A stretch of DNA of 53,511 nucleotides from Caldifarciminota bacterium (GTDB taxonomy: Bacteria > Hydrothermota > Hydrothermia > LBFQ01). Location of the stretch: contig WGAN01000131.1 of the NCBI GenBank assembly GCA_015494805.1, positions 1-53,511 on the forward strand, in the 5' to 3' direction. How positions within the stretch are numbered: position 1 is the stretch's first letter; each line of letters begins with the position of its first letter. Shown here in pieces: positions 1 through 9,457 of the stretch. A model generated the notes under the pieces. That model saw only the letters and a list, made by a program, of their open reading frames with translations, did not search any database and had not been told where the DNA came from. The position numbers were made by a program, and so were the translations under genes.

Positions 1-151
1 CCATATGCAAGTCCTTACCGGAGGGGTAGGGAAACATCTCAAGGACGTAGTACTTGCGTCTGGGCGGCTCCGGGGCCTTGTAGAGCTTCCTCTCCTCCCA
101 GAATCTCTGCCACTTCTCCTCTATCCTGCGGGGGTTGTACTCTCTCTCCAT
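1..151 (-). CDS. leuS: Leucyl-tRNA synthetase, N-terminal fragment (gene runs off the left edge)
   Basis: The minus strand from 151 reads [20 protein letters not shown] and then [17 protein letters not shown] before the window ends. This is the class I synthetase N-terminus, with FPYPSG leading into the HIGH-type ATP-binding motif (HMGH), which is cut at HM. Only about 50 of the roughly 800 residues expected are present. LeuS charges tRNA-Leu in the cytoplasm. The ATG lies 9 bases after a TAAAAT box, so the mRNA is probably leaderless. It is divergent from the methyltransferase gene to the right. Confidence 0.93.
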
Positions 152-212: not shown

Positions 213-218
213 TATAAT
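213..218 (+). promoter_or_regulatory. -10 box of the defence operon
   Basis: A perfect TATAAT ends 9 bases before the ATG at 228. No Shine-Dalgarno sequence can fit, so transcription probably starts at or next to the start codon. Confidence 0.7.
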
Positions 219-227
219 ACCCGTCGT

Positions 228-2273
228 ATGCACGGATGGGTTGAGCTGCTCTGGGATGGGAAGAGGGAAAGGAGATTTACGAGGGATAGCGTTGATAGGA
301 ACTATGGGAAGGTAAGAGAGGTTAAGAGGATTCCCTTACCTTTTCAAAAGATAGAGCTTCTCGGTATAGACAAAAAACGCTCAACCCGTAGGAACCTGTT
401 TCCTATCTTCCCCGAAGAGGAGTGGCCGAAGAACTATCCGAAGAACTGGAAGAACCTTTTGATATGGGGAGACAACAAGCTGGCTATATCTTCACTCTTG
501 CAGGGTATCAGTATAAACGGTGATAAGCTCAACCTGCGGGGGAAGATAAAGCTCATTTATATTGACCCTCCCTTTGCAACCGGTGCTGATTTTTCCTTTA
601 AAGTACCTATGCCGGAAAGCTGGAAGAGATTTATACCGAAGAACGAAATCGTAAAGAACCCATCAATTGTGGAGGAGCTCGCCTATAGGGATATGTGGGG
701 AGGGAGAACTCCGGAGGAGAGGATAGCGTCCTACCTCACCTATATGTACGAGAGGCTCGTTTTGATGAAGGAGCTGTTGGCGAATGACGGGTCTATCTAC
801 GTGCATTTGGACTACAGGATGGTGCATTATGTGAAGTTGATGATGGATGAGATTTTTGGGAGGGAGAATTTTAGGAATGAGATTGTGTGGTGTTATGGAG
901 GCGGAGGACAGCCAAAAGAGGATTTTCCACGGAAACATGATGTAATCCTAAGATATTCAAAAACTAAGGAAGTTACATTTAACAAAGATGAACCTTTACT
1001 ACGAAAACCTTATAAAGAAAGTACACAACAGGTAGGGATTCATAGTACATATGCTAAAGTATATGGAGATATTAAGATTGATTTAGAAAAAGGGCAATTC
1101 ATTACAGATTGGTGGGACGACATAGAAGTAGTGACTGGTTGGAACCCAGAAAAAATAAATTACCCCACCCAAAAACCCGAAAAACTCCTTGAACGCATCA
1201 TCCTTGCATCCTCAAACGAAGGGGATATAGTGGCAGACTTCTTCTGTGGCTCTGGCACCTTAGCGGCGGTTGCGGAGAAATTGGGAAGGCGTTGGGTATG
1301 TGTGGATATGTCAAAGTATGCCGTTCACGTAACGAGAAAGAGACTCCTTGATATAGCCCGCTCAAAGGCCCTTGGCATAAAGGTTGAGGACGAGCGGAAA
1401 AGACCCAGATACGATAAACCACCGAGACCCTTCTACCTCATTACCATAGCCAACTATATGACCGATAAGATGCAAAATCGCTCCGAGGTTATAAACCTCA
1501 TCCTGAACCTCTACGGGGCTGAAAGGATGAAACAGCCCTTCAAATACCTGCACGGTTTGAAGCGGAAAGATAAGGAAATAATCCACGTTGGACAGGCGAA
1601 CTTCCCTGTCACGCCCGCCGAGATTTACGAGGTTATTAAGGAGTTTAAAGAAACTCCGTTCTACAGGGAGGGATGGACGCTTGTAATACTCGGCTGGGAT
1701 TGGGCGCCGGACACCTTTGAGAGGGCCAAGGACATCTGGGAGATGCAAGAGGTTAAGTTAAGACTACTGCACATTCCTCCCATCTCAAAACTTGAGGAGG
1801 TGATGAAGAAGTACAAACTTGACCTATCAAAACTCGTTAGCTTTGAACTCGCCTTTGACGAGGAAGTAAGGAAGCATCTACGGTTCGTTGAACCGGGATA
1901 CGTGTGGCTTGCCGTTAGGGAGGACGGGCTGAAGGTTGAGCTTGAAATAAAGGATTTCTGGGTCAGGTTTCCCCACGGCTACGAGGACCTTGAGGAGGAG
2001 ATAAGAAAGAGGATAGAGGAGGCCAAGACGGACGCCACCAAGAGGAAGTACTTCCTCCCTCTCATAAATTACTGGGCAGTAGACTGGAACTACGATGGGA
2101 CGGTGTTTAAGCACGACTTCGTCAGTTTTGATAGGAAACCCGGTGAGGGTAAGGTAGAAGTGAAGGCTAAGCACACGTATAGCGAACCGGGGACTTATAG
2201 GGTAGTGGTCAAGATAACGGATATTTTTGGAGGGGAGACATCAAAGGAGGTAATCGTTAATGTAAGGGGGTAA
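228..2273 (+). CDS. Type III-like adenine-specific DNA methyltransferase (Mod subunit)
   Basis: Encodes 681 aa. It carries the catalytic motif IV DPPF at about residues 113-116 (context YIDPPFATG). Motif I, ADFFCGSGT, follows at about 333-341. IV before I is the beta-class order seen in type III Mod enzymes. YPTQKPEKLLERI just before motif I is also typical. The expected activity is N6-adenine methylation with SAM. The last 45 or so residues resemble a PKD-like beta-sandwich (HTYSEPGTYRVVVKITD). Bases about 938-1165, between the two motifs, are markedly AT-richer than the rest and probably form the target-recognition region. The frame stays open upstream to a TTG at 186, but that would precede the TATAAT, so the ATG at 228 was chosen. 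The Res gene starts 3 bases downstream. Confidence 0.88.
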   Translation: MHGWVELLWDGKRERRFTRDSVDRNYGKVREVKRIPLPFQKIELLGIDKKRSTRRNLFPIFPEEEWPKNYPKNWKNLLIWGDNKLAISSLLQGISINGDKLNLRGKIKLIYIDPPFATGADFSFKVPMPESWKRFIPKNEIVKNPSIVEELAYRDMWGGRTPEERIASYLTYMYERLVLMKELLANDGSIYVHLDYRMVHYVKLMMDEIFGRENFRNEIVWCYGGGGQPKEDFPRKHDVILRYSKTKEVTFNKDEPLLRKPYKESTQQVGIHSTYAKVYGDIKIDLEKGQFITDWWDDIEVVTGWNPEKINYPTQKPEKLLERIILASSNEGDIVADFFCGSGTLAAVAEKLGRRWVCVDMSKYAVHVTRKRLLDIARSKALGIKVEDERKRPRYDKPPRPFYLITIANYMTDKMQNRSEVINLILNLYGAERMKQPFKYLHGLKRKDKEIIHVGQANFPVTPAEIYEVIKEFKETPFYREGWTLVILGWDWAPDTFERAKDIWEMQEVKLRLLHIPPISKLEEVMKKYKLDLSKLVSFELAFDEEVRKHLRFVEPGYVWLAVREDGLKVELEIKDFWVRFPHGYEDLEEEIRKRIEEAKTDATKRKYFLPLINYWAVDWNYDGTVFKHDFVSFDRKPGEGKVEVKAKHTYSEPGTYRVVVKITDIFGGETSKEVIVNVRG

Positions 2274-2276
2274 AAT

Positions 2277-5087
2277 ATGCCGAGGAAAAGGAAGAGCAGT
2301 TTTCCTACAATTGAGGTCGAAAAACCCCCTGCAGACATAACCTTTATACCTCCCCATTCAATCCTTGAGCCTTACCCGAAATGGATCAGAATAGATGAGA
2401 ATTTCCTTGATTTAGTTGAAAGACGGTTCAAAAAATACATCCTTGATGGGGTAGCGTGGGCGAACAGTCAGAGGAAGAAGGGAAACCCTTACGCCCGATA
2501 CCCTTCCGAGGCCGTTTGTGTTAATAATCTCAGATTGAAGGTAAAGGAGTGGAGGGAGAAAGGCTATCCGGATGTCTCGGATACGACGAGGTACTTACTG
2601 GACTTCTGGTTTGAGCGTCCAAGGGATAAAGTATTCTGGTTCTCTCAAAGAGAAGCAGTTGAGACCCTTATTTACCTTTACGAAGTGGAGGAAATAACTA
2701 AGGTTAGCGACTTAGTGAAAAAATTCGGAGCTTTTGAGGTCGGTAATTACGATAAATACGACATATATCCGAGATATGCCTTTAGGATGGCCACAGGCTC
2801 AGGTAAGACCCTGACTATGGCCCTTTTGAGTGTATGGTCGTTTTTTAACTATCTTTACGAGGACGTAGATAGGTACGCGAGGTTCTTCCTGTTCGTCGCT
2901 CCCAACCTCATAGTGTATGACAGGTTGAGAAGGGACCTTGAGGATCTCTCAATTTACCGAGGGTTTCATCTCATACCGGAGGAGTGGGAAAAAGATTTTA
3001 AACTGCGGGTTATAACGAGGGACACCTTCTCGGACGCCGATAGATTCCCACCTCCGGATGATGAAGGGGTGATATTCGTGAGCAACATCCATCAGATAGG
3101 ATTTAGAAAGAAAAGTAGGAGGAAGGAAGACGTTATAGCTACACTGTTTGACTTACCCGATCCGGGAAACGATCCCTACAAGGCTACGTCAATCAAACTG
3201 TGGGAGATACTAAAAAACTACCCGAATCTGATGATACTCAAAGATGAGGCCCATCACATCCATAGAGAGGAGAGCAGCTGGCAAAACTACCTATGGGATC
3301 TGCACAAAGAGCTAGAGGAAAGCCATTCAAAGGGTATATTTATGGAACTTGATTTCAGCGCTACCCCGAAGGATGAGGATGGGGCTTTGTTCCCTTGGAT
3401 AATCGTTGATTTTTCCCTAAGGGAGGCAATTCAAACGGGAATAGTGAAGTATCCTGCCAAAGTGCTGGTACATAACGCCCCGGCGATAAAGAGGGGATTC
3501 TCCTTAGAAGACCTCATGCCCTACATAAACGCCGCCCTTGATAGATGGAGGAAACATAAAAAGAAGTTGAAAGAGCTGGGTAAAAAGTCCGTTCTTTTCA
3601 TAATGGCGGATGATATATCAACCGCAGAGGCCATATACGAAAGACTACTTAAAGAACCCGACATAAACCCCTCCAATATGATGCTAATACATTCAGAGCT
3701 TGACAACTGGAAGGCCAAGCTCAAGAAGAGAGGGAAGGAAATAGTTTCAAAGATAGAAATTGATGGTGAGGAGAGGAAGATAGATAAAGAGTTGGCCCTA
3801 ACGCTGGTAAGGGACCTTGACCGTCCCGACAATCCCATTGAGGTAATATCAAGCGTTATGATGTTGAACGAGGGGTGGGATGTAAGGTCCGTGACGGTTA
3901 TACTCGGTCTTAGGTCTTACGCCTCAAAGAGGGAGGTCCTCCCCGAACAGGTGATAGGTAGGGGACTTAGGAAGCTCTTCCCGAACGAGGGTGTAGATGT
4001 TGATAATTGGGTGAATATTTTGGAGGTGGTGGGACCTCCCAACCTACTGAAGATCCTTGATAATCTTGAGCAGATTGAGGGCTTCAAGATACCTGTAGCT
4101 CCGGATAAATTCTTCGTATCCTTTGGCCCGCGGATAGATGCAAGCGATGAGATGAAGTTTGAAATACCGATTTACGAGGCTATGTCCTTCAACGAGAGTA
4201 TAAATTTAAAAGATATAATAGATACCGCCTTCTCCCAGCTCCCATCCCGCACCTTCAAATACGACGAGATTGAAGCGTTCCGTAAGAGATACGAGTACGA
4301 AGTTGTTGATATGAAGGACAGGGTCTTGGACAAAGGGGAGATTGAAACCTACCTCTACGATGTTCCTGCTGTGCGTCTGGTAAAATTGGCAAAGGATTTA
4401 CAGAACGAAATACCACTTCCCAACTCCTTCCACCTGCTTTTAGAATACCTTGAGAGGTACATAACCGAGAGGTTATTTGACTCCCCCGTGGAGCTTGACG
4501 ATGGAGTTTTGAGGTTTCTATCGGCTAAGGGATGGTATCCGCAGGTCAAGAAGGCCATCTTAGATGCCTTCAAAAACATCCTTAAAAACCCCATGTTCTC
4601 AGATGAAGTTGAATTAAAGGAAGTGAGGGGTATAGACGACCTTGAGAGTTTCCCTTGGAACAAGGACTTTATGGACTCGGATAAGAGCTTACTCGTCAGG
4701 ATAGCCTACGAGGATGACGAGCAGATAAAAGTGCCATCCTCTCCTGTGGATAACGATATGGAGGCAGACTTCGTAAATTTCTTGACAAAAGCCGAAGATG
4801 TCGTCTCCTTTATAAAGAACGTTCCCCATATTGTAGGCCTTAAGATAGATTACTATGATTCAAGGGAAAGGAAGTGGAGGAGGTTCTATCCAGATTTCAT
4901 CGTTAAGACGAAGGATGGGATGTATATCGTTGAAACTAAAGGGAGGGAGGAGATTCAAGTACCCGATAAGAACCTCGCCGCCCAAAAGTGGTGCAACATC
5001 ATCAACAGTAAAAGCGGTCAGAGGTGGAAGTATCTCTACTTGAGGGAGGGGGATTGGGTGGGAAAAAGCAGGCTTGACAGAGTATGA
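2277..5087 (+). CDS. Type III-like restriction subunit: DEAH helicase with C-terminal PD-(D/E)XK nuclease
   Basis: Encodes 936 aa. Walker A (ATGSGKT) is at about residue 170, a DEAH box (LKDEAHHIH) at about 320, a FSATP motif III at about 360 and motif VI (QVIGRGLRK) at about 557, which together make an SF2 motor. The C-terminus has a PD-(D/E)XK-type endonuclease signature: PDFIVKTKDG at about 871 and ETKG at about 885. This is the architecture of type III Res proteins. It would partner Mod, cleaving DNA that lacks the Mod mark. It follows mod by 3 bases and overlaps the next gene by 4 bases (ATGA), so the three genes are probably cotranscribed. Confidence 0.88.
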   Translation: MPRKRKSSFPTIEVEKPPADITFIPPHSILEPYPKWIRIDENFLDLVERRFKKYILDGVAWANSQRKKGNPYARYPSEAVCVNNLRLKVKEWREKGYPDVSDTTRYLLDFWFERPRDKVFWFSQREAVETLIYLYEVEEITKVSDLVKKFGAFEVGNYDKYDIYPRYAFRMATGSGKTLTMALLSVWSFFNYLYEDVDRYARFFLFVAPNLIVYDRLRRDLEDLSIYRGFHLIPEEWEKDFKLRVITRDTFSDADRFPPPDDEGVIFVSNIHQIGFRKKSRRKEDVIATLFDLPDPGNDPYKATSIKLWEILKNYPNLMILKDEAHHIHREESSWQNYLWDLHKELEESHSKGIFMELDFSATPKDEDGALFPWIIVDFSLREAIQTGIVKYPAKVLVHNAPAIKRGFSLEDLMPYINAALDRWRKHKKKLKELGKKSVLFIMADDISTAEAIYERLLKEPDINPSNMMLIHSELDNWKAKLKKRGKEIVSKIEIDGEERKIDKELALTLVRDLDRPDNPIEVISSVMMLNEGWDVRSVTVILGLRSYASKREVLPEQVIGRGLRKLFPNEGVDVDNWVNILEVVGPPNLLKILDNLEQIEGFKIPVAPDKFFVSFGPRIDASDEMKFEIPIYEAMSFNESINLKDIIDTAFSQLPSRTFKYDEIEAFRKRYEYEVVDMKDRVLDKGEIETYLYDVPAVRLVKLAKDLQNEIPLPNSFHLLLEYLERYITERLFDSPVELDDGVLRFLSAKGWYPQVKKAILDAFKNILKNPMFSDEVELKEVRGIDDLESFPWNKDFMDSDKSLLVRIAYEDDEQIKVPSSPVDNDMEADFVNFLTKAEDVVSFIKNVPHIVGLKIDYYDSRERKWRRFYPDFIVKTKDGMYIVETKGREEIQVPDKNLAAQKWCNIINSKSGQRWKYLYLREGDWVGKSRLDRV

Positions 5088-5231
5088 AAATCACCCTCTT
5101 GGCCAAGCTCAAATTTGACCTCCGGGACCCCGACGAAGCCCACTTCGCTGGCCATGAACTGGCCGCAATTCTAAACAGCGACGTAAAACCTGTCAGGACC
5201 ATCCCCTTCCTCTTCAGGGAACACCCCTTCA
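5084..5231 (+). repeat. 148-bp direct repeat, copy 1 (5' end of the second methyltransferase gene)
   Basis: By eye, 146 of 148 bases match 8738-8885. Both differences are C here and T in copy 2. The match begins at the start codon (one T earlier at most) and stops abruptly after base 5231. Confidence 0.95.
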
Positions 5232-6880
5232 ACAAGTTAAACGAGGTTGCAGTACGCATAATCACCCGGAACCTTTACCTCGGAGAGGTACAGGGATATC
5301 TGGCGAAGGTTAAAAACGTTAGGACCGATAAACTTATATACGGACCGGCATTTTTTAGGGAAATATACCTTATAGTTGAAACTTCTAAGAGTGAAGAGGA
5401 GTTAAAGCGGGAGCTATCCCTAACTAACGAAAATCTGTTTCAGATTCTTACCGCGAATGATGGGATATTCGTGGTAAGGTTATTTCCCATCCAGACCTTA
5501 TTTGAGTACGCAGCTGACGTTAAGAAACTACCCTACGTTGCCATTACTCCGAAGGGGACGAAGAACTTGGATGAATACCTTTCTGAAAAGGAAAAGGGCA
5601 TAGAGAGGGGATTGGAGGAACTTATACATCATTTGAGGAACAACCATTTCCGCGCCCCCCATCTCGGTCTGGGTAAGAGACACATAGGGGATTTCGTAGA
5701 TTGGGCATCAACCGACCTGCGCAAACCCTTTCTTCACTACCTCCACAAGTACAAGGGCAAGGGGGATCCGAGAATATCAAGGGCCTTGATAAACCTTCTC
5801 AAGGTGGATGAGGGCGCTACTGTTCTGGACCCCTTTGCAGGGTCCGGTGCCTTTATAGCGGATGCTCCTACTATGGGATTGAACGCCGTAGGGGTTGAGA
5901 TCCTAAGGATAGGAAAGCTCATATCCGAAGTTAAGGGAGATTTGAACTACGATATACAGAGATTAAGGGGGGAGATAGTAAAACTTTTCAGTGGCCGCTA
6001 CAGGGAACGGGATATGTTTTCCGGGGATATTTCCGGTGAGATAAGAAGGATTAGGGAAAATCTACTGAAGCAAATAGGAAACAGTAAGATAGTTTCAAAC
6101 ATTATACCACATCTTAAAAAGATCGCCTATCTGAAAAACGAAATAGAAAATATCAAATATGAGAAAGCAAAAAAGTTCCTCCTCCTGATGTTAAGTCAGA
6201 AGATCATAGAGTTCTCCGAGAAGAAAAGGGGCAACGATTTTACGACTTCATTCCGCAACTACGTTGAAGATAGGTATCTAACCCTGTATGCTACCCTGAA
6301 GCTGGCCGAAAAGTTGGGAATAAACCTTAATAGTGGAAAGATAAGGATAGTAAAGGCCGATTCCACAAGTATGCATTTTTTGGAGGATGGATCCATAGAC
6401 GGAATACTGACATCACCCCCTTACTTTGATGCCCTGGACTATATCGGAAACAACAAGGTTTCAATAGTTATTCTTGGCTTTGATGAGGATTTGAAATTCG
6501 GAGCTACCAAAGAGTACTATTCAAAATTTGACAAGTATGACCTGAAACTACCCGAATCTAGTGAAGATCTGATAACTTTACTAAAAAAATCCCGAAGGTC
6601 ATCCAAGGCAAACGTTGTCAGGAACTATCTGAAGATGATGAAACTGTCGTTTAGGGAGTGTTTTAGAGTCTTAAAACCCGGAAAATATTACGTCATGGTT
6701 GTCAGTAAATACCATCGCTGGATTATAAACGGTGAGGAGAGGAGAATTGAAACGTCGCGGATTCTATCGGAGCTGGGCGTATCGGAGGGTTTCAAACTCG
6801 TGGATGTGATCCAGCACGGGCTTTCAAAGGCGGATAAGGGGAAGATCAACGTAGAAGATATATTGATTTTCCAGAAGTGA
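5084..6880 (+). CDS. Second DNA methyltransferase-like protein with TRM11-like layout
   Basis: Encodes 598 aa. The SAM-binding motif DPFAGSGAF is at about 248 and the catalytic motif TSPPYFDALDY at about 442. (T/S)PPY is typical of N4-cytosine or N6-adenine DNA methyltransferases. The roughly 190 residues between the motifs are Lys/Glu-rich and may carry target recognition. The N-terminal 240 residues look like the accessory domain of TRM11/COG1041-type enzymes (FAGHELAAIL segment), so an RNA substrate cannot be excluded. The start overlaps the Res stop by 4 bases. Its first 148 bp recur almost perfectly at 8738-8885. Methyltransferase: high confidence; substrate: uncertain. Confidence 0.78.
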   Translation: MKITLLAKLKFDLRDPDEAHFAGHELAAILNSDVKPVRTIPFLFREHPFNKLNEVAVRIITRNLYLGEVQGYLAKVKNVRTDKLIYGPAFFREIYLIVETSKSEEELKRELSLTNENLFQILTANDGIFVVRLFPIQTLFEYAADVKKLPYVAITPKGTKNLDEYLSEKEKGIERGLEELIHHLRNNHFRAPHLGLGKRHIGDFVDWASTDLRKPFLHYLHKYKGKGDPRISRALINLLKVDEGATVLDPFAGSGAFIADAPTMGLNAVGVEILRIGKLISEVKGDLNYDIQRLRGEIVKLFSGRYRERDMFSGDISGEIRRIRENLLKQIGNSKIVSNIIPHLKKIAYLKNEIENIKYEKAKKFLLLMLSQKIIEFSEKKRGNDFTTSFRNYVEDRYLTLYATLKLAEKLGINLNSGKIRIVKADSTSMHFLEDGSIDGILTSPPYFDALDYIGNNKVSIVILGFDEDLKFGATKEYYSKFDKYDLKLPESSEDLITLLKKSRRSSKANVVRNYLKMMKLSFRECFRVLKPGKYYVMVVSKYHRWIINGEERRIETSRILSELGVSEGFKLVDVIQHGLSKADKGKINVEDILIFQK

Positions 6881-6903
6881 CCTTTAAATCTTGATGCCGC
6901 CCG

Positions 6904-6909
6904 TATAAT
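6904..6909 (+). promoter_or_regulatory. -10 box of the ATPase/TOPRIM pair
   Basis: TATAAT lies 5 bases before a GTG at 6915 and 11 bases before an ATG at 6921. The 5-base spacing matches other leaderless genes here, such as purC and galT. The pair therefore has its own promoter inside the island. Confidence 0.6.
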
Positions 6910-6914
6910 GGGCG

Positions 6915-8195
6915 GTGAGGATGGCTATAAAGAGGATAGAAGTAAGGAACTTTAAGAGTTTTAAGGATTTGAGAGTTGACCTTGGGAGATTCAACGTCTT
7001 AATTGGTGCAAATGCCTCCGGCAAGTCAAATTTTGTGAGTATTTTTAGGTTTTTGAGGGATATAGTAAAGCATGGATTGGAAAATGCCATATCCCTACAA
7101 GGTGGAGTGGAATATATCAGGAATATTAAAATAGAACACAAAGAGAATTTGCGCATAAAAGTTATTTTTGGTGAAAAATATAAAACACTTCCTCAAAAAA
7201 CTAAAATAGGTATAATTAGTACTGAATTGATAGAAACTGTTTATGAATTTTCATTAAGATTTTATAAAAGAAAAAGAGGGGCAGGTTTTAGGATAGAAAA
7301 AGATGTTTTAACTCATAAAATTAGATTTTTAAAAATGGAAGAAAAGATCAAAGACACACGAACTTTAGGATTTAAAGAGATTGGCAAAGGGGAGATAATC
7401 ATTTATCACAACGGAAATAAAATAATAGTCAATTTTAATAAGTATCCTGATATACCTGTAAATAGAGATGAATTATTCTTTGTAGCTGTAGAGAAGTTGC
7501 CGGAGCTAACTCTACTTATAGAGGCACCTATACTCATATTGCCTCCGATAAGACCTGTAAAGGGTTCGTTTATTTTAAATAATATAGCACTATATGATTT
7601 CGATCCTAAATTACCTAAAAAGGCTCATCCTATCACAGGAAAAGCTGAATTGGAGGAAGATGGTAGCAATCTATCCATAGTTCTCAAAAACATTTTATCA
7701 AGGAAAGAGGAAAGAGAAAAACTGTTTAATCTCATAAAAGATCTCCTTCCATTCGTAGAGAACCTTGACGTTGAGAAGTTTGCAGACAAATCCATTCTAT
7801 TCAAGCTGAAAGAGTCCTACTCAAGAAAAAAGTATATTCCTGCATCTTTAATCTCCGATGGTACAATAAACATAACCGCGCTTATTGTAGCTCTGTTCTT
7901 TGAGAGGAAACCGTTTGTTATTATTGAAGAGCCTGAACGGAACATTCATCCACATCTGATTTCCAGAGTGGTTGAAATGATGAAGGACGCTTCCAGACAT
8001 AAGCAGATTTTGGTCACCACACACAACCCGGAGTTCGTCAAACATGCCGGCCTGGAAAATCTCTTGCTTATCTCCCGTAATAGGGAAGGATTTTCGGAAA
8101 TTTCACGCCCTGCAAAGAGGGAAGAGGTTAAAATATTTTTAGAGAACGATATAGGTATTGATGAGCTTTATGTGCAGAACTTACTGGAGGTTTGA
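6915..8195 (+). CDS. AAA/ABC-type ATPase of a defence ATPase-nuclease pair
   Basis: Encodes 426 aa. The N-terminus IKRIEVRNFKSFKDLRV and the Walker A GANASGKSN at about residue 30 are typical of SMC/RecF-like AAA_15/AAA_21 ATPases. The C-terminal half has the signature-like SDGT at about 314, Walker B (FVIIEEPE) at about 333 and the H-loop TTHNPEF at about 368. Such ATPases pair with TOPRIM or DUF4276/DUF4435 proteins in OLD-, PARIS- and RloAB-like defence modules, and the next gene fits this. The central part (bases about 7140-7740) is much AT-richer than either end. Start: GTG 6915 by promoter spacing, or ATG 6921. Confidence 0.8.
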   Translation: MRMAIKRIEVRNFKSFKDLRVDLGRFNVLIGANASGKSNFVSIFRFLRDIVKHGLENAISLQGGVEYIRNIKIEHKENLRIKVIFGEKYKTLPQKTKIGIISTELIETVYEFSLRFYKRKRGAGFRIEKDVLTHKIRFLKMEEKIKDTRTLGFKEIGKGEIIIYHNGNKIIVNFNKYPDIPVNRDELFFVAVEKLPELTLLIEAPILILPPIRPVKGSFILNNIALYDFDPKLPKKAHPITGKAELEEDGSNLSIVLKNILSRKEEREKLFNLIKDLLPFVENLDVEKFADKSILFKLKESYSRKKYIPASLISDGTINITALIVALFFERKPFVIIEEPERNIHPHLISRVVEMMKDASRHKQILVTTHNPEFVKHAGLENLLLISRNREGFSEISRPAKREEVKIFLENDIGIDELYVQNLLEV

Positions 8196-8198
8196 GGT

Positions 8199-8735
8199 AT
8201 GGCCTCGTACAGACGGTTGTTCATATTCGTTGAAGGGAACGATGATGAGAGGTTTATCAGGTACGTAATAGAACCGGAGTTTATGAAAAAATACGATTAC
8301 GTCAGAATCATAAAGTACGCACAGGAAAAGAAGGACAAACTGTGCAATTTGATAAAATCAATCAAAAGTATGGGAGCAGACTATCTCTTCTTTGCCGACA
8401 TCAACGATGCGCCGTGCATTACTGGTAAAAAATCAAAGATTATTAAAAGTTGCAAAGAAATCAGCCCGAATAGGGTATTGATCGTAATAAGGGAGATAGA
8501 GGGCTGGTATCTGGCGGGATTGAGTGATGAGGACTGTATAAAGCTCAAAATTAAATGTTTTTCAAATACAGACAATATCACAAAGGAGGAATTTAATAAG
8601 TTAATTCCCAAGAAATTCTCTTATTCTCGTATAAACTTTCTGATAGAAATTTTAAATCACTTTTCTATAGACGAGGCGAGACGCAAAAATAGATCTTTTG
8701 AGTATTTTTATAATAAATATCTTAAGCAATGGTAA
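8199..8735 (+). CDS. Small TOPRIM-like partner of the AAA ATPase
   Basis: Encodes 178 aa. The N-terminus LFIFVEGNDDERF has the TOPRIM glutamate (VEG), FADIND at about residues 66-71 supplies a D-x-D-like motif, and REIEGWYLAGL at about 98 resembles the REhEAWLLAD segment of DUF4276-type proteins. In related pairs the TOPRIM protein is the nuclease effector and the ATPase the sensor. The gene starts 3 bases after the ATPase stop, behind a GGAGG. It is short for AriB of PARIS (about 300 aa), so a DUF4276/RloB-like role is a better guess. Function is inferred from motif and context only. Confidence 0.62.
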   Translation: MASYRRLFIFVEGNDDERFIRYVIEPEFMKKYDYVRIIKYAQEKKDKLCNLIKSIKSMGADYLFFADINDAPCITGKKSKIIKSCKEISPNRVLIVIREIEGWYLAGLSDEDCIKLKIKCFSNTDNITKEEFNKLIPKKFSYSRINFLIEILNHFSIDEARRKNRSFEYFYNKYLKQW

Positions 8736-8737
8736 AT

Positions 8738-8885
8738 ATGAAAATCACCCTCTTGGCTAAGCTCAAATTTGACCTCCGGGACCCCGACGAAGCCCACTTC
8801 GCTGGCCATGAACTGGCCGCAATTCTAAACAGCGATGTAAAACCTGTCAGGACCATCCCCTTCCTCTTCAGGGAACACCCCTTCA
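8738..8885 (+). repeat. 148-bp direct repeat, copy 2
   Basis: Partner of 5084-5231, offset by 3654 bases in the same orientation. Recombination between the copies would remove most of the second methyltransferase gene and the whole ATPase-TOPRIM pair. Confidence 0.95.
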
Positions 8886-8920
8886 GGTATTTGGTGGATA
8901 GAGTGGTACAGTCCTCGTGA
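8738..8920 (+). pseudogene. Truncated copy of the second methyltransferase gene (N-terminal stub)
   Basis: Codes for the same first 49 residues as the gene at 5084 (MKITLLAKLKFDLRD, then FAGHELAAIL) and continues for 11 unrelated residues to a TGA. It begins 2 bases after the TOPRIM stop, so it sits as the last gene of that operon. It lacks the SAM and catalytic motifs, so it is either a dead remnant or a tiny protein carrying only the start of the N-terminal domain. The 2 silent differences in 148 bp point to recent duplication or ongoing gene conversion. Confidence 0.75.
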
Positions 8921-9444
8921 ACGTTAGTGCGGGATTTTGTATCGTAGTACCAATTGCACTTCCCGAAGCTCAGTTTGAGAGGGCGTTGGTGTAGAGTTCT
9001 CCAAATCGTAAGGACGGGCTGCCCTCTATACCGCTTAAAATTTGTGATTGAGTTTAAAACAGTTTTGGTTATAATTTTAAATTAAAACGATGGTAGATGG
9101 AGTATTATTTTTCAGTATAATACTAATAATATATAAAAATGACAGAATACACAATTTTGGCACGAATCTACCGGAAATCCTACAGATGCACTTTTAAATT
9201 ATTAAACTTTTTTAAAGTACATCTTAAAAATTTTTCTTATATAATTTTTTCGTTAATTCTTAAAAATGATTAGCATAGCGGATTTTCTTTAAAATTTACA
9301 ATAGCAACTTAAATAAATTAATACCCAAACTTCATAAAACTGCCAGTTGTACCTCATGATTTTTGAAATCCCATTTCAAGGTTCTGGGGGACGGATCCCC
9401 ACCCCCTCAATGCATCACCCTACCCCTCCGAAAACAACAGGGGG
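8921..9444 (+). other. Gene-free, partly very AT-rich gap at the island's right edge
   Basis: No convincing gene on either strand. The first 110 bases have mixed composition and could be eroded coding sequence. About 9040-9330 is strongly AT-rich with many TTAAA/TTTTAA words. It separates the defence island from glyA and probably marks its boundary. No tRNA or inverted terminal repeats were seen. Confidence 0.5.
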
Positions 9445-9450
9445 TAAAAT
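9445..9450 (+). promoter_or_regulatory. -10 box of glyA
   Basis: TAAAAT followed by 7 bases and the ATG at 9458. It supports the internal start rather than the 37-codon upstream extension. Confidence 0.6.
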
Positions 9451-9457
9451 ACCTTCT

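Follow-up and report, generated by a model that had tools for sequence, protein, structure and literature searches.

Type III restriction-modification systems of the EcoP15I kind are encoded by adjacent genes, mod first and res after it, whose products are a methyltransferase with its motifs in the beta order and a restriction subunit that joins an SF2 helicase to a C-terminal PD-(D/E)XK nuclease. Cleavage by such systems depends on ATP and on a complex of Mod with Res, and takes place between two unmodified sites in inverse orientation. Type II systems of the R.HinP1I type combine a methyltransferase with an endonuclease of family PF11463. A third arrangement, shared by HEC-01, the AriAB pair of PARIS and the MAD3-MAD4 pair of MADS, consists of a gene for an OLD-type ABC ATPase followed by a small TOPRIM gene. 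Such pairs often sit beside modification systems and have been described as backup effectors (PMC12839542).

Here we report the analysis of a defence locus in which members of these known kinds stand side by side. The window is the whole stretch of 53,511 nucleotides analysed, which is the entire contig C131 of a draft genome (G000; 1.88 Mb in 218 contigs, 85.9% complete). The locus is a real defence island and a real composite, as the original prediction had it, and its modules come apart in relatives; the idea of one combined system finds no support, and the locus is mostly ordinary in its parts. The explanation that we consider quite likely is that it consists of three modules of separate origin, namely Mod-Res, an orphan methyltransferase (MTase2) and an ATPase-TOPRIM pair, with a direct repeat that reflects a recent rearrangement of one block. 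Its features are as follows.

1..151, minus strand: N-terminal part of leuS (LeuRS; phmmer against PDB, E 8.5e-13), divergent left border
213..218, plus strand: TATAAT box of unit 1, 9 nt before the mod ATG; probable leaderless-type promoter, by positional enrichment over 43 genes
228..2273, plus strand: mod, type III-like beta-class DNA methyltransferase with a PKD-like C-terminal end
2277..5087, plus strand: res, SF2 helicase with C-terminal PD-(D/E)XK nuclease
5083..5231, plus strand: repeat copy R1, covering codons 1-49 of MTase2
5084..6880, plus strand: MTase2, gamma-order amino-methyltransferase with a 190-aa N-terminal domain, probable orphan of an R.HinP1I-type system
6904..6909, plus strand: TATAAT box of unit 2, 11 nt before the ATPase ATG at 6921; probable leaderless-type promoter
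6915..8195, plus strand: AAA_21/OLD-type ABC ATPase (ATG also at 6921), HEC-01A-, MAD3- and AriA-like
8199..8735, plus strand: small TOPRIM/DUF4276-like protein (weak Pfam DUF4276 match, 3.5e-4), partner of the ATPase
8737..8885, plus strand: repeat copy R2, in which codons 1-49 of MTase2 recur, 147/149 identical
8738..8920, plus strand: truncated MTase2 copy, a 63-codon ORF, presumably non-functional
8886..9440, plus strand: AT-rich, non-coding right border ahead of glyA

Since the window is a whole contig with leuS to the left and glyA to the right, neither end of the island is missing. The coordinates agree with the predicted genes and spacings for all five members: res starts 3 bases after mod, and res and MTase2 share the four bases ATGA, the TGA stop of res lying within the start of MTase2. 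Inspection by eye found the catalytic motifs of all five proteins intact. Searches of the right border (8886-9440) by tblastn, and at the DNA level across the genus, returned nothing resembling MTase2 or any of the neighbour genes collected. A remnant of a lost endonuclease was sought in 8886-9457 with all collected ORFs (tblastn) and by the genus DNA search, and none was found. A 58-bp stretch there, 8921-8978, matches G000:C156:11641-11698 at 84% identity, near an apparent 5S rRNA gene. No clean empty site for the island was found, the sequence upstream of glyA varying among sister genomes.

The assignment of the first two genes to a type III-like Mod/Res pair was borne out by profile searches. 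Mod matches Pfam N6_N4_Mtase (1.2e-48, aa 107-369), PADLOC MTase_III (1.2e-86, aa 25-673) and the EcoP15I Mod structure 4zcf (2.3e-18), and its motif YIDPPF precedes FFCGSGT (FCGSGT), that is, motif IV comes before motif I as in the beta order. Res matches Pfam ResIII (2.9e-12, aa 165-365), a TnsA-like nuclease (2.6e-4, aa 856-906) and PADLOC REase_III (4.7e-18), with an NCBIfam BPTD_3080 match under the cut-off and no solved structure matched by sequence; the motifs GSGKT, DEAH, SATP and PDF..VETKG are intact, the last being kept in relatives. At about window positions 901-1200, inside mod and between the catalytic motifs, where the target-recognition region is expected, the GC profile drops sharply to 0.35-0.37, which would fit an exchange of that region.

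To trace the modules in other genomes, their neighbourhoods were surveyed with one genome per species in one phylum (147 genomes), and GTDB contigs were scanned for MTase2 only. The 18 mod-res loci inspected among these 147 genomes include none (0/18) with MTase2, a HinP1I endonuclease or the ATPase-TOPRIM pair, some contigs stopping near res so that flanks are partly visible. The closest relative of the window mod-res is that of G026, with 73% identity in res. In many of the 18 loci, mod and res have additional genes between them or next to them. In G026 the two are separated by a gene for a protein of 633 aa (L093 11076-12977), whose C-terminus looks membrane-like and for which no Pfam match exceeds the cut-off; an MNT-HEPN toxin-antitoxin pair splits mod at the same place, about aa 382-394, in G048 and G095 (L096 1934-4497, L098 1485-4211); and the G145 locus carries an AbiE-like pair. 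A second predicted methyltransferase in a mod-res operon is not unique to the window: the distant loci of G143 and G048 have another gamma methyltransferase between mod and res, 24-25% identical to MTase2 and without its N-terminal domain, together with a BrxC/D-like ATPase. Gene order in those loci (L095 630-9409, L096 1934-11448) is Mod, gamma methyltransferase, accessory genes (in L096 including a Csa1/PD-(D/E)XK protein), BrxC/D-like ATPase and Res, a larger composite that could represent a recurring system of its own.

MTase2 carries DPFAGSG at aa 249-255 followed by TSPPY at aa 443-447 and matches Pfam N6_N4_Mtase and UPF0020; the prediction of an additional methyltransferase in the mod-res operon was right. 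TSPPY would be consistent with methylation at N4 of cytosine, the kind that a site lacking A would demand. Eight relatives of MTase2, 54-72% identical, were found in G033, G052, G107, G117 and G143 as well as three further drafts (L024, L025 and L026), and mod-res accompanies none of them. An R.HinP1I-family endonuclease (PF11463) is present with all seven whose upstream side is visible: it lies directly ahead of the methyltransferase in G033 and L025, is recognised by its C-terminal tail in L024, has a divergent form in G143, and in G052, G107 and G117 is separated from the methyltransferase by a GmrSD-like gene and a second small gene. The last arrangement is a four-gene operon (R.HinP1I, GmrSD_N-like, HEPN-like, MTase2; L028 9777-12342, L143 4572-8988, L144 4367-8767) that recurs in three genera; the Pfam HEPN match is found in G052 only, the corresponding genes of the others being its homologues.

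Because its relatives partner R.HinP1I-type endonucleases in seven of seven visible cases, MTase2 is most likely a DNA methyltransferase that did not evolve as a guard against the ATPase-TOPRIM nuclease, and the protective role suggested for it in the original prediction finds no support. By its neighbourhoods, MTase2 is best read as an orphan methyltransferase that stems from a type II system of the R.HinP1I type and has settled behind res. Searches for the PF11463 endonuclease, positive in 8 of the 147 genomes, gave no match in G000, a draft of 85.9% completeness; the lost-endonuclease reading is limited by this draft state, and the enzyme is possibly encoded elsewhere in the genome. A broken R.HinP1I-type endonuclease gene with an internal stop occurs in G009 (L145 4669-5231), which belongs to the same order as the window's genome. 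Viral contigs yielded no relatives of MTase2, and plasmids yielded matches to the methyltransferase core only, at 23-34%. GCGC avoidance was considered as a guide to specificity and proved uninformative, the counts being near expectation in endonuclease-bearing contigs. Other endonucleases of the HinP1I family in the phylum have a C5 methyltransferase partner in G061 and a short beta amino-methyltransferase in G135, and partner exchange in this family therefore seems common.

The ATPase matches the Pfam AAA_21/OLD-type models at 2.7e-30 and retains GANASGKS and EEPERN, and the TOPRIM protein retains EGNDDE and the D at 67. Seven relatives of the ATPase, 57-63% identical, were collected; a TOPRIM gene adjoins in all six whose locus no contig end interrupts (shortened to 119 aa in G077), and mod, res or MTase2 lies beside none of the seven. 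With its own promoter box in addition, the pair is a separate module, as had been anticipated.

TATAAT-like boxes (at least 5 of 6 positions) ending 1-12 nt ahead of the start codon were found for 8 and 15 of the 43 window genes in the first two 6-nt bins, counted outwards from that codon, whereas each bin further off holds 0-1. As this enrichment beside start codons is a genome-wide feature, the boxes at 213 and 6904 are probable promoters; the second is the predicted box ahead of the ATPase-TOPRIM pair, and it exceeds chance by these bin counts. By its promoter boxes, the locus is probably divided into a mod-res-MTase2 unit and an ATPase-TOPRIM unit. Many operon starts of the window have such a box at 1-12 nt from the start codon (for example 213, 6904, 12507, 18839, 25951, 33133 and 44760), and leaderless or near-leaderless transcripts appear to be common in this genome. 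GC content is 0.45-0.46 in mod-res, 0.35 in ATPase-TOPRIM and 0.60 in host genes.

A direct repeat of 149 bp (5083-5231 and 8737-8885) flanks the block formed by MTase2, the ATPase and the TOPRIM gene. Its copies have two differences, both synonymous, and share an exact stretch of 77 bp; identity begins at the ATG in both and stops after codon 49, and the second copy stands right after the TOPRIM gene. This repeat, missed in the original prediction, creates the truncated MTase2 copy at the end of the interval (8738-8920). Third codon positions of the repeat are C in 28/49 (57%) against 128/549 (23%) in the rest of MTase2 (Fisher p 1.6e-6), a count attained by no other 49-codon stretch in the island genes. 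Because this composition is host-like and unmatched by those other stretches, MTase2 probably begins with a patch that has come from elsewhere. A ratio of protein identities of 0.99 for the window and G033, against 1.17-1.46 for G033 with other close relatives, is no more than suggestive of a mosaic N-terminal part of MTase2. The repeat points to a recent rearrangement of the MTase2-ATPase-TOPRIM block, which recombination could remove.

As proposed from domains and motifs, the type III-like Mod-Res would mark host sites and cut unmodified DNA. MTase2 follows res directly, through a start/stop overlap like the one that it has elsewhere with its endonuclease, and most likely would still add a second methyl mark at the site of the lost endonuclease, none matching being known in G000. 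The ATPase and TOPRIM protein would form an independent two-gene module and most likely an abortive effector of the OLD-ABC/TOPRIM kind, acting when restriction fails. Recombination between the repeat copies would remove a block of 3,654 bp with MTase2, ATPase and TOPRIM, leaving mod-res.

The fold of MTase2 was predicted. An earlier model (pLDDT 59) gave no significant structural match, and the nearest solved folds to a ten-sequence model (pLDDT 71) are archaeal Trm11 tRNA m2G10 methyltransferases (Foldseek 4e-8 to 2e-6; TM up to 0.54 by target length). A sequence profile of MTase2 matches the same Trm11 proteins at 2.9e-10 over a 62-residue stretch, and none of the ten family members matches a THUMP domain. 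The predicted Trm11-like fold is unusual for a HinP1I-type partner and may be newer, a side result of possible novelty. More speculatively, and with the odds rather against it, MTase2 and its kin could be DNA methyltransferases derived from a Trm11-like tRNA-methyltransferase architecture to serve R.HinP1I endonucleases, one of which would have been captured here by a type III operon, with its 149-bp start segment duplicated, two kinds of methyl mark per operon and a block losable by recombination.

The three-module explanation has to be weighed against others that read the same arrangement differently. The overlap of res and MTase2 would couple their translation, and the type III operon may have gained MTase2 as a functional third member, supplying a second specificity on which Mod-Res or its regulation would depend; it follows res with no gap and has no promoter box of its own, and the G143 and G048 loci set another gamma methyltransferase between mod and res, with the BrxC/D-like ATPase. 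However, those enzymes lack the N-terminal domain and are not close kin of MTase2, the relatives of which serve a type II endonuclease, and no mod-res locus of the phylum has an MTase2 orthologue, so that we regard such recruitment as unlikely. Very unlikely, too, is the single modification-restriction-suicide system of the original prediction, with an extra mark that protects against the ATPase-TOPRIM nuclease. The five genes are adjacent on one strand, methyltransferase, ATPase and TOPRIM combinations occur in MADS and BREX-related (Hma) loci (PMC12839542), and PADLOC matches to mad2, mad3 and mad4 are found in the island. Yet none of the 18 mod-res, 8 MTase2 and 7 close ATPase loci (33 in total) shares genes between the modules, although G033 and G143 each carry two of the three on separate contigs; the ATPase-TOPRIM pair has no mod, res or MTase2 beside it in seven genomes and stands behind its own box here, and the MAD3 score of the ATPase is far under the cut-off (143.9 against 420 bits). 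The gene-order check thus found no co-occurrence in the loci searched, and the suggestion of a recurring, undescribed five-gene arrangement finds no support there.

The Trm11-like predicted fold and profile match lend some weight to the suggestion that MTase2 methylates RNA, as a Trm11-kind tRNA methyltransferase guarding RNA against the TOPRIM nuclease. An RNA substrate is possible but unlikely, because the relatives pair with a DNA endonuclease wherever the upstream side is visible; the TSPPY motif, the lack of THUMP matches and a model pLDDT of 71 only also speak against such a guard, which we judge highly improbable. The join at the repeat could also be an assembly error, so that MTase2, ATPase and TOPRIM would perhaps not truly lie between res and glyA: a 149-bp repeat with a 77-bp exact stretch in a draft of 218 contigs, and an upstream side of glyA that differs among sister genomes, are what such an error might leave. 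The copies differ at two sites and are separable by reads, though, glyA with its flanking sequence is typical of the genus, and this genome has a second occurrence of part of the right border; we judge such an error very unlikely.

The locus illustrates that what plausibly looks like a "new system" of five genes can be due to accidental neighbourhood, and that the neighbourhoods of relatives, not adjacency in one genome, settle such cases. The repeat-bounded block provides a concrete example of defence-module turnover. If the side finding on MTase2 is true, endonucleases of the HinP1I type have acquired partners from at least three unrelated kinds of methyltransferase, among them one whose fold resembles that of tRNA methyltransferases, a point of relevance to the assembly of restriction-modification pairs.

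Compared with known systems, the window Mod-Res resembles type III systems of the EcoP15I kind in motif order, domains and gene order, and differs by the PKD-like end of Mod and by the unrelated modules that come after it. MTase2 resembles R.HinP1I type II methyltransferases in that its relatives adjoin a PF11463 endonuclease, in some (G033, L025) with a start/stop overlap; in contrast, the window has MTase2 with the endonuclease missing, and MTase2 itself combines a long N-terminal domain with a Trm11-like predicted fold. In Hma (Helicase-MTase-ATPase, DUF499-centred, BREX-related) a backup effector pair likewise lies inside a modification-restriction locus, whereas the island has no DUF499/BrxC ATPase, and a type III Mod and Res supply its methyltransferase and helicase. 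The full mad set of MADS was not seen. PARIS pairs AriA (AAA_15) with AriB, a DUF4435 TOPRIM; the window TOPRIM weakly matches DUF4276, not DUF4435, and the AriB model at 2.9e-4 over a short part. By PADLOC, the ATPase matches HEC-01A at 2e-54 and the TOPRIM protein weakly resembles HEC-01B (8e-6 to 2e-5).
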